From Blautia sp. SC05B48 (GTDB lineage: Bacteria > Bacillota > Clostridia > Lachnospirales > Lachnospiraceae), in NCBI RefSeq assembly GCF_005848555.1, contig NZ_CP040518.1:929001-993000 (forward strand): a DNA stretch of 64,000 nucleotides, read 5' to 3'. The notes beneath the pieces are model-generated. The model was not told where the DNA came from. It worked only from the letters and a program-made list of their open reading frames with translations, and searched no databases. A program made the translations under genes and the position numbers. The stretch's first letter is position 1; each line of letters starts with the position of its first letter. Shown in pieces: positions 16,952 to 38,715 of this stretch.

Positions 16952-18274
16952 TTAGTGCTTTAACAGCGTGGGTTTTAATATCACCTGATCCGCGGGTATA
17001 TCTTTAAGATCGCAAAGTTCCAATAGTTTTCTGTCTATCAGTAACTGAGCCAGTTTAAATGGGGTACAGCCGTTTAAACTGGCTCTTGCCACGCTATTGA
17101 TATGGTTAGCTATCAGAGTTACCTTGCTCTGGTTCAGTTGTGCGAAGCCGATACCTTTGGGAAGGATATAACGGATAAATTCATGGTTTTTTTCCAACTT
17201 GCCTTTCTGCCAGGACGACATAGGATCACAGTAGAAAACCCGGGATAAACGAGCTGTATCTCCAGGACGTTCAAATATTTCAGGGTCTTTAAAAGAGGAG
17301 CCATTGTCTGTGAGGATGACAGGAAATAACTTGTGGTATAGATCAGCTCCAAGCTGTTCATACAGCCAAAGGAAAACTTCCCTGATATTTTTACGGTTAT
17401 CGGCTTCAAGCAAAAAAATGAGCATAAGGTTACAGTTACGGAATAACATAGTCAGAAGGACTTTCTCAGATTTTCCACCAGCTCCTTCCACAACATCTAA
17501 CTCTACAACATTTGTGTCTGGATATTCTTCAAGATATTTTTCAAAATGATGGTATGTCCTGTTTTCCCGGTAGCCGGTGTTTTCAGGGGCTTTTCTGGTC
17601 TTGCGACGCTTTTTATAGCGTACTTTGCGGGGGAGGTCCAAATTGATAGCAGTAAAATATCCATGATCAATGTAGTTATACAATGTACGGATGGAACAAT
17701 CGATAAGATGTTGATTGGAAGCGTAAATATGAGATAATGGCTGCCCTTTAAGGAGAAAAGGCGAAACCAGTTGATCCAATTGTTCCAGCGATTCAGGAGT
17801 CTGATTGATACCGGAACGGGAAGAAACCTTGATCTCATTATAAAGGTCATGGGCATAATGGGCACGGTAAAAATAGAAGTCATGGGAACAGGTCCGGATC
17901 TGTTTACAGTTATTACAGACGTAAGGTGGTTTTTTAAGTCTGTCACAAAGTATAGGAGTAAAATCACGGCAGTACACGGCGCAGCGTTTGGAACGGCATT
18001 TAAAGCATAATGACTGGCAGGAAAGGCTGCCACATACATTTCTTTTTTCACAGAAATGAAAGAACTGGCATTCTGAGCGTTTCTTCTGTAGGTCGTCCTG
18101 ATAATGAGGAACATGTATGAGATGCCGCCGTATCTCCTTTGAGATGGTAGAGGAATCCTTGTTTAACCTCTGAGCGATCTGTGTAAAGTTTTCGCCAATC
18201 TGTATACCATGTTCGATAGCAGCACGGTCAGCGAGAGTAAGGTGTTTGTGATTCCCAATATTATTAGTAGCCAT
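16952..18274 (-). mobile_element. IS30 family transposase
   Basis: The 440-residue frame appears intact. It has an N-terminal HTH (HLTLADRAAIEHGIQIGENF, then IAQRLNKDSSTISKEIRRH), a cysteine-rich zinc-binding-like segment at about 70-145, and the DDE core: VVELDVVEG, VILTDNGSSF and KGKLEKNHEFIRY. This is a typical Firmicutes IS30 transposase. Element ends are uncertain: GGGCGGAAGTTAG at 16684 and the complement of GGGTGGAACTTAG at 18374-18386 are the best imperfect terminal repeats, giving about 1.7 kb. No clean target-site duplication was identified. Confidence 0.9.
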
Positions 18275-20210: not shown

Positions 20211-21200
20211 TTATAACTGATATTCTCTGTACATGGCTTCACGCATTTCTTTATCTGTAACAACCTTCTGGATCTCATTGCCACGACCATCAAGTATAAG
20301 CCTGTTGATCAAAACTCTAAGTCGCTCCTCCCCCTGGGCCATTCCCTGAGCCATTCCCTGAGCCATTCCCTGAGCCATTCCCTGAGCCATTCCCTGTTCT
20401 CGCCCCAGTGCTTCAGCCTGTTCTTTAGCTTCCGCCATCAGCCTTGCCCTTTTCTCAGATTCCAGTTCCAGAACATGTCCACCCATAATCTCACCTATTC
20501 CTTTCCGGACTTTCTCCTCATTTCTGAAAATATGATCAGATATCCGAGTTATCAGTCCAATCAGATCACTGAACAGTTCGGACCTTCCAGATTCAGTGAT
20601 CTCTGCTTCCAGTTTACTCCGGATCACTTCATATTCATTCAGTAATTCCTGAAAAAGTTGTGGATCCTCACTCATCTCATGCCCTCTTTTTTCATATCGC
20701 ATGATATAAAAAGGAAGCAGCATAAGAAGACTCTTTTCAAATATCTTATCTTTTGTATAATTCTCTACTTTAATGGCAGGCACTCTGTACAAATGACATC
20801 CTCCATCTGGAAAAACCACATCCACTTCCAGAAAATCCGGCGTATTCCTACTGTTTCTAAGATACAACACACAAGAACGCGGAAACTCCATCCGATACCT
20901 CCGTCCCTGCTTTCTGGCAAACTCAACAGCAGTTGCAAAATCATACTCTATCATCCGTACAGCCATTGTCGTGTCATCCGTACTCTGACATTCTATATGA
21001 TAAATCCGGTTTCCGATCAACAGCCGCGAATCCATAATAATCTCACCATCCACCCGCTGATACTCATTACGCAACTGCACAATCTCCACATCAGCCGGAT
21101 ATGATGTATGAAAAACATCATTGATCAAAGGCACGACCAGAAACGTCATTTTCTCCATCATAGTACGAAAAACATCATCAAAAATCGTATTATCTCTCAA
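20211..21200 (-). CDS. Rpn/PD-(D/E)XK nuclease family protein (PF12784-like)
   Basis: The product is 329 residues. It begins with the family's FDDVFRTMMEKMTFLVVPLI segment and keeps the nuclease core GEIIMDSRLLI (Asp57) plus YHIECQS (Glu70-x-Gln72). The C-terminal region is helical and includes five in-frame GMAQ repeats at about 272-291, encoded by a perfect 12-nt tandem repeat. Such recombination-promoting nuclease-like proteins are often present in many copies in Lachnospiraceae genomes and are annotated as PD-(D/E)XK transposases. No inverted repeats mark it as a mobile element. Confidence 0.82.
   Translation of the reverse strand: MRDNTIFDDVFRTMMEKMTFLVVPLINDVFHTSYPADVEIVQLRNEYQRVDGEIIMDSRLLIGNRIYHIECQSTDDTTMAVRMIEYDFATAVEFARKQGRRYRMEFPRSCVLYLRNSRNTPDFLEVDVVFPDGGCHLYRVPAIKVENYTKDKIFEKSLLMLLPFYIMRYEKRGHEMSEDPQLFQELLNEYEVIRSKLEAEITESGRSELFSDLIGLITRISDHIFRNEEKVRKGIGEIMGGHVLELESEKRARLMAEAKEQAEALGREQGMAQGMAQGMAQGMAQGMAQGEERLRVLINRLILDGRGNEIQKVVTDKEMREAMYREYQL
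20338..20397 (-). repeat. Five tandem 12-nt units inside the Rpn-like gene
   Basis: The unit GCCATTCCCTGA repeats at 20338, 20350, 20362, 20374 and 20386, the last ending in GT. It encodes Gly-Met-Ala-Gln in the minus frame and keeps the frame when units are gained or lost. Confidence 0.9.
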
Positions 21201-21417: not shown

Positions 21418-21542
21418 CGTCCAGCAACGCGCCGACCCTCACAATCTCCCTCCAAGCCACAGGGAATCTCACTCTTCCAAACTACAAGCGTCCAGCAACG
21501 CGCCGACGCTCACAACCTCCCTTCAAACCACAGGGAATCTCA
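21418..21542. repeat. Two 54-nt direct repeats, 71-nt period
   Basis: Copies at 21418-21471 and 21489-21542 differ at about five positions. Each begins CGTCCAGCAACGCGCCGAC and ends CCACAGGGAATCTCA. They lie in non-coding DNA before the large hairpin. The 21201-21417 stretch upstream of them shows no gene. Confidence 0.85.
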
Positions 21543-21628
21543 GCCTTTCCTCCCAGCCATCCAGCGCAGCGCTGATGGCTCATCCAACTCCCGTCAGACC
21601 ACTCTAGCCCTCCCACCATGACCGCACA

Positions 21629-21872
21629 GTGTGAGGTTTGCAGCAGAAGTCCGGGTGCTTTGGAGTGAGCCTTGGTCCATACTTAGCGTCTGAGGTGGTT
21701 CACGGAGAGGTACCCGGCGGCCACAAGCCGCAGGGTAAGGCCCATCTGTCTGAGCCAGGTACGCATCAGCGTACATGGCGAGTTATGGGCCGGCCGCTCC
21801 GTGAGACACCTCAGACGCTTAGTATGACCAGGCGAAACGACGGCACCCGGACTTCTGCTGCAAATCTCACAC
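21629..21872. ncRNA. Large nested hairpin, candidate structured RNA or palindromic repeat element
   Basis: The 244-nt unit is GC-rich within AT-rich surroundings. Its outer stem pairs 21629-21658 with 21843-21872, 29 of 30 positions being Watson-Crick. The second stem pairs 21674-21707 with 21797-21829 with few mismatches. Inside are two hairpins: 21712-21736 (ACCC/GGGT and GCGGC/GCCGC) and 21739-21791 (GGCCCAT/ATGGGCC enclosing GCCA/TGGC and GTACGC-ATCA-GCGTAC). No open frame covers it. I could not match it to a known RNA family. Either strand could be transcribed. Confidence 0.6.
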
Positions 21873-21888
21873 GTCCGTCCGTGTCATC

Positions 21889-21917
21889 TTGCCCCCACCA
21901 AACACCTGTGCTATAAT
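21889..21917 (+). promoter_or_regulatory. Promoter of the DUF4317/HAD pair
   Basis: TTGCCC (21889-21894), 17 nt and TATAAT (21912-21917) lie just after the large hairpin and 33 nt before the DUF4317 start. Confidence 0.55.
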
Positions 21918-21949
21918 CAAATTAATCAAAAAACCGAGGTAAACCACAC

Positions 21950-23164
21950 ATGAACAAAAAAGAAATCGCAGAAATAAAAAAACAATTCACCCCTGACCGC
22001 TGCTCCATCACCCGCATCTGCGGCTGCTACGTAGACGGTGAAAAAAACAAAAAAACCGAACTCAAAGAAGCCTTCTTATCCTTATCAGAGGAAGAAACCT
22101 TCAAATACTTCGATATCTTCCGAAAAACCCTCACCGGCACCATTGGAAAAAACCTCATCAACATGGAATTTCCCTTGGATCAGGAAGACGAAGGCGGAAC
22201 CCAAAACTTCCTCATGAAACTCCGCAAAAGCAAACTCACCGACGACACCCTCACCGAAGCCTTCTACGACAGAATCATAGAAAACTACGACTACGGTGAA
22301 AACTACTACATCATCCTCATCCATGCAGTCTACGACATCCCCGGCAAATCCTCCGACGGCGCCGAAATGTTCGATGCCTCCGATGAGATCTACGACCACA
22401 TCCTCTGCAGCATCTGCCCGGTCAAACTCTCCAAGGCAGGCCTGCATTACAACACAGAGACAAACAACATTGAAGACCGTATCCGGGACTGGCTGGTAGA
22501 AATGCCTGACTGGGGCTTCCTCTTCCCACAGTTCAACGACCGCAGTACCGATATCCACGGACTTCTCTACTACACCAAAAACGCCGAAAATCTCCGCTCC
22601 ACCATGATGGAAGAAGTCTTCGGCTGCACCACACCACTATCTGCCGGAACCCAGCGCGACTCCTTCAATGCTCTGGTGGAAGAAACACTTGGTGATGACT
22701 GTGCCTACGACACAGTCCTTGAGATCCACGAAAAGCTTAACGACCTCATTGAATCCCAGAAGGACGAACCGGAACCTGTTGTCCTCACCAAATCCGAAGT
22801 CAAACGTCTCTTCGAAGAATGCGGCGTAGAAGACGAAAAGCTTCAGAACTTCGATGAACAATATGAGCTTGCTGCAGGAGAAAAATCTGCTCTGGTAGCA
22901 TCCAACATCACCAACACCAGAAAATTCGAGATCAAAACCCCGGATGTGGTGATCCACGTGGCACCGGACCGGGCAGAGCTGGTAGAAACTCGGATCATCG
23001 ACGGCCGCAAATGCCTGGTGATCCCCATGGAAAGTGAAATAGAGCTCAATGGCATCCGTGTCAGCGCACTGAACTCTGTTGAAGATACATCCGCAGAACC
23101 GCTTCCTGTTAATGATATTACTGACATTAATAACAATAACACCGAAGAAGAAATCCCATTTTAA
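21950..23164 (+). CDS. DUF4317 family protein
   Basis: The product is 404 residues and matches the pattern of DUF4317 proteins of Clostridia: KKQFTPDRCSITRICGCYVD at the start and LSLSEEETFKYFDIFRKTL soon after. The predicted protein is acidic, cytosolic and without transmembrane segments. The C-terminal 60 residues are Asn/Glu-rich and poorly ordered. The function of the family is unknown. It is followed after 10 bp by a HAD phosphatase with its own AAGGAG, so the two are likely one operon. The gene uses many A-rich and C-ending codons compared with its neighbours. Confidence 0.75.
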   Translation: MNKKEIAEIKKQFTPDRCSITRICGCYVDGEKNKKTELKEAFLSLSEEETFKYFDIFRKTLTGTIGKNLINMEFPLDQEDEGGTQNFLMKLRKSKLTDDTLTEAFYDRIIENYDYGENYYIILIHAVYDIPGKSSDGAEMFDASDEIYDHILCSICPVKLSKAGLHYNTETNNIEDRIRDWLVEMPDWGFLFPQFNDRSTDIHGLLYYTKNAENLRSTMMEEVFGCTTPLSAGTQRDSFNALVEETLGDDCAYDTVLEIHEKLNDLIESQKDEPEPVVLTKSEVKRLFEECGVEDEKLQNFDEQYELAAGEKSALVASNITNTRKFEIKTPDVVIHVAPDRAELVETRIIDGRKCLVIPMESEIELNGIRVSALNSVEDTSAEPLPVNDITDINNNNTEEEIPF

Positions 23165-38444: not shown

Positions 38445-38715
38445 TAAAAAAAATCCGTCCCCTTTCAGGGACGGATATAAAATTCCGCAACCACCCTGTT
38501 TCTCCATTGAAACAAGCACGATTCTGCAACGTACCGGCATACGCGACTTCTGTAACGGGAAGCACCCGTGAAAACCTACTTACTTGTCTGAAACTTTCGG
38601 CTTTCCTTCTCAGGGATGATATTCAAGGCAGTTCCGACGCTGCATCACACCAGTCACAGCTCTCTGAAGACGGTTCCTCTGTCTTTACTGATTCCCTTCA
38701 TGGAATTTACTTCTG
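38445..38715 (-). promoter_or_regulatory. T-box leader, probable Ile (AUC) specifier
   Basis: On the minus strand the order is AGAGAG-type stem I bulge, GGTGTGATG loop, specifier loop GAAT-ATC-A (specifier ATC, complement at 38618-38620), then the antiterminator bulge GGGTGGTTGCGG, then a terminator: TCCGTCCC (38454-38461) pairing with GGGACGGA (38468-38475), followed by eight T. The bulge UGGU would pair with an ACCA tRNA end, consistent with the A73 discriminator of tRNA-Ile. Uncharged tRNA would favour read-through into the TRAP genes. Confidence 0.85.

Follow-up and report, generated by a model that had tools for sequence, protein, structure and literature searches.

A 244-nt Nested Hairpin of Blautia sp. 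SC05B48 as a Probable Giant Member of the REP/MITE-like Dispersed Repeats

Introduction

The question raised by this locus is what a nearly perfect nested hairpin of 244 nt represents in an intergenic gap of the Blautia sp. SC05B48 genome (G000). The original prediction, made from the window (the whole stretch of 64,000 nt that was analysed), saw in it a candidate structured RNA that could be an ncRNA, a MITE-like palindromic repeat or a leader of the DUF4317/HAD gene pair. The reading favoured here, to which a probability of about 0.6 is assigned, is that the hairpin is a giant non-autonomous REP/MITE-like dispersed repeat with a selected fold. Judging from the comparison of copies, which are scattered through gut Clostridia, the structure is kept by paired mutations as the sequence drifts, and copies appear to come and go between close relatives and not to be bound to a particular gene.

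Fold and Surroundings of the Window Hairpin

The hairpin is real as a fold, which contains 99 pairs (96 Watson-Crick and 3 G-T). The folding energy of the 301-nt segment 21600–21900 is −183.9 kcal/mol versus a mean of −107.9 for dinucleotide shuffles (z −15.2), and none of 100 shuffles reached it. The outer arms, 30 nt long, are 97% complementary, and the 29 Watson-Crick pairs plus one G-T pair originally counted were confirmed by eye; the second arms, 33 nt long, are 88% complementary. An asymmetric internal loop separates the two long stems, and two inner hairpins close a three-way junction (Table 1). The description of the element as GC-rich in an AT-rich gap also stands, with a GC content of 0.594 in the hairpin, 0.463 and 0.455 in the flanking gap and 0.437 in the whole window. 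Among frames of at least 80 aa, only a mechanical 92-aa TTG frame crosses the hairpin, in agreement with the reported lack of an ORF.

Rfam 15 gave no match on 21560–21950 at E up to 10, in support of the original prediction. A search of 16 related loci with an E limit of 1 gave rRNA and T-box matches; all others, to miRNA families and BTnc060, were below threshold, and some of them overlap a copy of the family described below. The sole Rfam match in the window at gathering score is a T-box leader at 38464–38710 (−).

The promoter-like site announced at 21889 is present at 21889–21917 and starts 17 nt 3' of the hairpin (consensus scan; 0.6 such sites expected in shuffles). The role of a cis-regulatory leader of DUF4317/HAD was rejected on this ground: the hairpin ends at 21872 and does not lie between promoter and start codon, so a transcript from this site would not contain it. 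Other copies, moreover, have other neighbours. No T-run follows the window hairpin, and no promoter- or terminator-like site was called at the hairpin itself by a scan that does not cover such long stems. A small palindrome and two 59-nt direct repeats, both absent from the original prediction, lie upstream (Table 1).

Two minus-strand genes of the window are also of note. The gene at 20211–21200 (−) is weakly similar to Rpn recombination-promoting nucleases (24.1 bits, cut-off 52.1) and contains a series of AQGM repeats. By eye, comparable repeats occur in the gene next to the hairpin copy at locus L013 of Blautia massiliensis GD8 (G009). The HTH_38 protein encoded at 16952–18274 (−) is presumably an IS30-type transposase.

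Table 1. Features of the window hairpin and its immediate surroundings (window positions).
Feature	Position	Strand	Basis
Whole hairpin, subtype B, boundary CA-G...C-GTCC	21629..21872	+	Fold, arm complementarity, GC
5' arm of outer stem, hypervariable among copies, pairs with 3' arm	21629..21658	+	Arm comparison with 100 other copies
Outer stem 3' arm	21843..21872	+	Arm complementarity
Conserved core, full-length match of covariance model R2	21659..21842	+	24.6 bits, E 2.1e-5 in the 64-kb search
Basal internal loop 5' side, TTTGGAGTGAGCC; KTYGGAGTRAGCC in five subtype-B sequences	21659..21671	+	Subtype-B alignment
Basal internal loop 3' side, GGCGAAACGAC	21831..21841	+	Subtype-B alignment
Second stem 5' arm, with the CTTAG element of the family	21678..21710	+	Complementarity; R2 alignment
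Second stem 3' arm	21794..21826	+	Arm complementarity
Extra hairpin of subtype B, absent from subtype-A folds	21712..21736	+	Folds
Apical hairpin, family-wide tip CTGTYTGAGC (21746-21755) / GCGAGTT (21778-21784)	21739..21791	+	Alignments, fold
Small palindrome CATCCAGCGCAGCGCTGATGGC	21558..21579	+	Sole match in the 64-kb window at up to 4 substitutions
Two 59-nt direct repeats, 71-nt spacing, start of upstream repeat array	21418..21547	+	Repeat scan
GTCC after hairpin base, boundary in most copies of the genus	21873..21876	+	Boundary comparison
Promoter-like site of DUF4317, outside the element	21889..21917	+	Consensus scan, 3' of hairpin

Closest Copies: Subtype B

With those identified by DNA searches, there are two closely similar copies in this genome (the window hairpin and one at C1:1484017) and four in B. 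massiliensis GD8, termed subtype B. Matches were found in 2 of 64 genomes of the genus and in 2 of 397 genomes of the taxonomic family, the second of the latter (G451) being a 21-nt match without a hairpin, which was rejected as a copy. The 191-nt cores of subtype B align gap-free; the centre is conserved and the ends vary. When the fold of the window copy is applied to five sequences, 15 of 72 pairs show a double-sided change (mean of 6.5 in shuffled and 0–3 in slid controls). A search of phages and plasmids with the window copy gave no match.

The Larger Family and Its Spread

A second large hairpin with the same tip motif adjoins the G009 copy at C4:3059388. Its relatives in G000 constitute subtype A, which shares the architecture and lacks the extra inner hairpin. 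Two covariance models were built: R1 from eight subtype-A hairpins (52 pairs, 14 with double changes) and R2 from 84 copies, none of them of subtype B. E-values of the model searches are rough.

When 93 sources were scanned with R1 at E 0.01, the window copy was not among the matches; unfiltered, R1 aligned with it in antisense (15.0 bits) and on the plus strand at the tip only (12.7 bits). With R2, the best match in the window is the hairpin core (Table 1), and the sole other listed match has E 0.33. R2 aligns with four of the five other subtype-B copies from end to end; in the fifth, L013, the match is confined to the tip. The background of R2 was one match at E 0.01 in 400 kb taken from arbitrary places of seven carrier genomes. 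The link of the window copy to the family thus rests on the R2 match, the common tip and the common boundary.

R1 detects the hairpin family in at least 20 of the 64 Blautia genomes and, within the taxonomic family, in at least 22 of 397 genomes (19 of 334 genera); R2 detects it in at least 41 of 391 genomes (31 of 223 genera) of the class. These tallies are lower bounds, since for sets of more than 40 genomes filters were stricter and few candidates were scored per genome (47, 7 and 8 for genus, family and class, respectively). Model matches include antisense matches of the palindromes and were merged by hand, which reduced the 24 rows of G000 to 15 copies of near full length plus 2 partial ones, and the 30 rows of G009 to 20 plus 1, in addition to 2 and 4 copies of subtype B. 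The option of a MITE-like dispersed palindrome, raised originally, is supported by this scattered multi-copy family. The hundreds of copies with target duplications that had been named as the mark of a MITE contrast with the 17 and 21 copies, partial ones included, that remain besides subtype B after both-strand rows were merged in these two genomes.

Among side observations, locus L048 (G000 C1:1454783) carries a third hairpin subtype matched by R2 at the tip motif only, and three tandem copies about 235 nt apart occupy 1925–2533 of locus L365 (G643). One subtype-A copy had no match in phages and plasmids, and the strict core pattern had 0 matches in viral contigs. The loose tip pattern, for which chance matches are expected in viral contigs, gave at least 120, and 13 of 100 of these loci match the model at E 0.01. 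Contigs L330, L292 and L276 of the viral collection contain several family copies each.

Selected Structure and the Folded Strand

Evidence for a structured element, as originally proposed, is provided by compensatory changes. For alignment A4, 79 loci with E no higher than 2e-11 were chosen, which gave 84 rows. Across the 83 distinct rows, 94.2% of cells are paired and 49 of 52 pairs have double-sided changes, in 1209 cells. The covariation score is 0.741 versus 0.202 in shuffled and 0.09–0.12 in slid controls; the alignment was fitted to the model, which favours these figures. G-T pairs exceed A-C combinations by 280:84 over all 52 pairs and by 191:62 (p 2e-16) over the 50 that remain once a fixed U-G pair and a poor pair are excluded. 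This excess identifies the plus strand as the probable folded strand, as expected if it folds as RNA or single-stranded DNA.

Alignment A3 was obtained by dropping 27 of 122 matches (antisense or overlapping), with 95 rows kept, 91 of them distinct. In these 91, tip columns 83, 84, 87, 88, 89 and 164, 165, 166 are 98–99% conserved. Of the unpaired positions listed for the tip and the GCGTT/TTTTAGC loop, all are 92–99% conserved apart from one at 87%.

The outer arms were taken from 100 copies, 46 of them from G000, G009 and a third Blautia genome (G044). The remainder came from 37 further genomes, each represented in most cases by its top match. The median length is 28 bp; 71 arms are between 24 and 34 bp, 10 are under 20 bp and 8 reached 45 bp, where the extension was stopped. 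Pairs in these arms are 93.9% Watson-Crick and 2.5% G-T. In 85 distinct arms of at least 20 bp, the ratio of G-T to A-C is 62:38, a weak bias that the extension rule itself slightly favours. The complementarity of the arms may therefore be due in part to template-switch correction and not to selection on RNA.

Unit Boundary and Genomic Setting

Within the genus, CA precedes and GT follows the outer stem in 60 of 75 copies from 20 genomes, and the downstream motif is GTCC in 48 of the 75; the window copy has CA at 21627–21628 and GTCC directly after the hairpin. Outside the genus, the CA...GT boundary was found in 3 of 25 copies, so it is characteristic of the genus. In the three Blautia genomes, 46 subtype-A copies were compared for the small palindrome CATCCAGCGCAGCGCTGATGGC, with as many as 4 substitutions allowed: 19 have it upstream, at most 450 nt away and oriented like the hairpin, 1 has it downstream and none has it inverted.

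Copies are scattered and mostly intergenic, with 7 of 100 overlapping an ORF of at least 250 aa. Of 84 copies with genes called on both sides, 31 lie in convergent, 39 in same-direction and 14 in divergent arrangement (16 further copies had one side called); both figures come from crude ORF calling. The fixed neighbour sought did not emerge, and most flanking proteins are unrelated: the largest real-looking group of similar ones comprises 6 loci in 4 genomes, orthologous loci included. Two bigger groups, with 11 and 17 loci in 3 genomes, seem to consist of low-complexity sequence or of reading frames within the repeat. At 8 of the 11 loci scanned for rRNA (L141, L143, L144, L160, L162, L165, L056 and L076), a complete or partial 16S rRNA gene is present downstream or nearby, the copies being close to the 5' end of the gene or fragment.

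Gain, Loss and Possible Mobility

The gap between the DegV-family and AAA/M41 peptidase genes contains the element in G009. G000 and G044 have a common other sequence there, with a short GC-rich hairpin flanked by A and T tracts; by eye this hairpin resembles a terminator, though the scan did not call it. At a second site, G009 and G044 carry the element and G000 lacks it. At both gain sites, the flanking DNA differs beyond the element; the idea that arms are copied from the target was dropped, as no such copying was seen there by eye. Four sites of G000 are deletion scars that keep pieces of the arms. The d copy (G009 C4:2707790), missing at G000 1477962, represents either gain or loss and was left out of the counts. 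Neither a target-site duplication nor a clean insertion junction or empty site was found among the G009/G000 sites compared, so mobility is deduced indirectly.

The G000 site matching G009 C4:3059388 at first seemed to be an empty target whose flank had been copied into a hairpin arm, that is, an inverted target duplication. The window copy, at another locus, has the same distal arm, CAGYGTGAGG... (a likeness attained by 1 of 1000 shuffles for left arms and by 34 of 1000 for right arms). For this reason the duplication was rejected, and the site is better read as a probable deletion scar between GTCC repeats. Between copies, cores 98% identical occur with arms 60% identical (50% when shuffled), as would be expected from exchange between copies. 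Between loci L148 and L151, one pair of the orthologous outer arms has changed with full compensation and one position without, although G000 has lost the core.

Y1 transposase genes gave 50 matches in 9 of 12 genomes. A family copy is present within 1.5 kb at 2 of 30 fetched Y1 loci, one with the Y1 element apparently inside a hairpin and the other with a 144-aa Y1 gene 0.6 kb away; neither has hairpins flanking the Y1 gene in REPtron-like fashion, and a REP-associated tyrosine transposase (RAYT) as general mobiliser in the genus was set aside. At L205 (G000 C1:3119338), by eye, a Y1-transposase element has seemingly split a family hairpin, with halves on both sides.

Discussion

A single odd hairpin thus becomes a family with strong covariation, about 17–21 copies in two Blautia genomes, members in several families of the class and no Rfam 15 match. 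In the genus, the unit consists of CA, a variable complementary outer stem, a conserved core, the returning outer stem and GT(CC), in some copies with same-orientation palindromes upstream. The element could spread in trans: an enzyme would recognise the folded single strand, probably plus-strand ssDNA, at the invariant internal loops and the hairpin base. Copies that have landed and are transcribed could stabilise RNA or work like terminators at the ends of genes. Several points weaken this explanation: a functional RNA would account just as well for the invariant internal loops and the strand bias, the CA...GT boundary is not kept outside the genus, no target-site duplication or clean empty site was found among the sites compared, no autonomous partner emerged from the 30 fetched Y1 loci, and 7 of 100 copies overlap a long ORF.

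The main rival is a family of structured ncRNAs that function in trans or within 3' UTRs, have multiplied by duplication and bind a protein or ligand through the two invariant loops. We regard it as rather unlikely, even with the near-invariant unpaired tip positions (98–99%) between freely changing stems, the strand-specific G-T excess and the spread over 31 of 223 genera of the class. Against it stand the patchy occurrence (20 of 64 genomes of the genus), the deletion scars and differences in presence between sister species, the absence of a recurrent neighbour beyond 6 loci and the window hairpin without a called promoter- or terminator-like site of its own. A large bidirectional transcription terminator or chromosome-structure site, without mobility, would suit the common convergent gaps (31 of 84) and the site where the element replaces the short GC-rich hairpin with A and T tracts of two relatives. 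It is very improbable, given the missing T-run and uncalled terminator-like site at the window hairpin (long stems being outside the scan), the divergent and upstream-of-rRNA copies and the conserved internal loops, which termination does not need.

Mobilisation as a giant REP, with the folded strand cut by a RAYT, has a single suggestive case. In G488, a RAYT gene (81.7 bits, NCBIfam cut-off 80) has a family hairpin on either side, at distances of about 230 and 500 nt, and 5 copies are found in this 18 kb versus 0 in 100 kb elsewhere in the genome. On the minus strand, in addition, GGAC precedes the window hairpin where REPs carry their tag (GTAG or GTGG in the passages compared of PMC8266576 and PMC6006769). 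However, the G488 gene is surrounded by its own canonical GTAG-tagged palindromes, GTAG is missing at the base of the window hairpin, and the two Y1 loci of the genus near copies are the exceptions described above, which makes this mechanism improbable.

For the dispersed repeat with a selected fold, a bolder formulation may be put forward tentatively, at less than even odds. It would be a Clostridia-wide element folding on one strand, in which two invariant loop motifs (GCGTT/TTTTAGC and CTGTYTGAGC/GCGAGTT) could be the recognition signal of an ssDNA- or RNA-processing machine and which in Blautia would be carried along at the end of an ordered array of palindromes: a possible new class of structure-defined mobile repeat, free in sequence, with only fold and loops inherited. 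The question of the recogniser becomes testable with the search model, the boundary, the assignment of the folded strand and the pair of invariant loop motifs obtained here.

Comparison with Known Systems

In the literature searched, mostly outside subscription journals, no paper was recognised as describing this hairpin family. The main text of PMC8040213 reports palindromic candidate RNAs of the human microbiome, 20 of 250 of which are not predicted to form terminators. These candidates resemble the family in coming from human-associated bacteria, and their structures were found on both strands; the main text, to which the comparison applies, names no Blautia or Lachnospiraceae, and the two sets may overlap.

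REP elements are similar to the family as extragenic palindromes with an unpaired base tag, variable stems and many copies. According to the passages compared of PMC3733652, they are mainly located between convergent or same-direction genes, the pattern seen for the family; the words Firmicutes, Clostridi- and Blautia do not occur in that paper. REPs measure 20–40 bp versus 210–245 bp for the family, and two conserved internal loops, present in the family, are not described in the passages compared (PMC3733652, PMC8266576, PMC6006769). Their 5' tags, GTAG or CGTC in these passages, differ from CA...GTCC. The GTAG that characterises REPs and REPtrons is absent from the hairpin base in the window sequence. 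The CGTC type, described in PMC3733652 with 5' CGTC, a stem of 8–9 bp and a 3' CCA tail, differs from the CA-hairpin-GTCC order and the median outer stem of 28 bp.

MITEs are defined by conserved terminal inverted repeats. Here the arms vary more than the core between non-orthologous copies, and in subtype B the pattern is reversed, the centre being kept and the ends varying. ERIC/IRU elements (PMC2267715; see also PMC2759123 and PMC2229807) are dispersed, non-autonomous long stem-loops of about 127 bp, and copies in Yersinia are reported to act as RNA hairpins. The family resembles these and other MITE-like repeats in being dispersed, non-autonomous and built as long stem-loops. ERIC is, however, an enterobacterial sequence family, whereas the family described here conserves structure and loops and is free in sequence; neither conserved terminal inverted repeats nor target-site duplications were found among the copies and sites compared.
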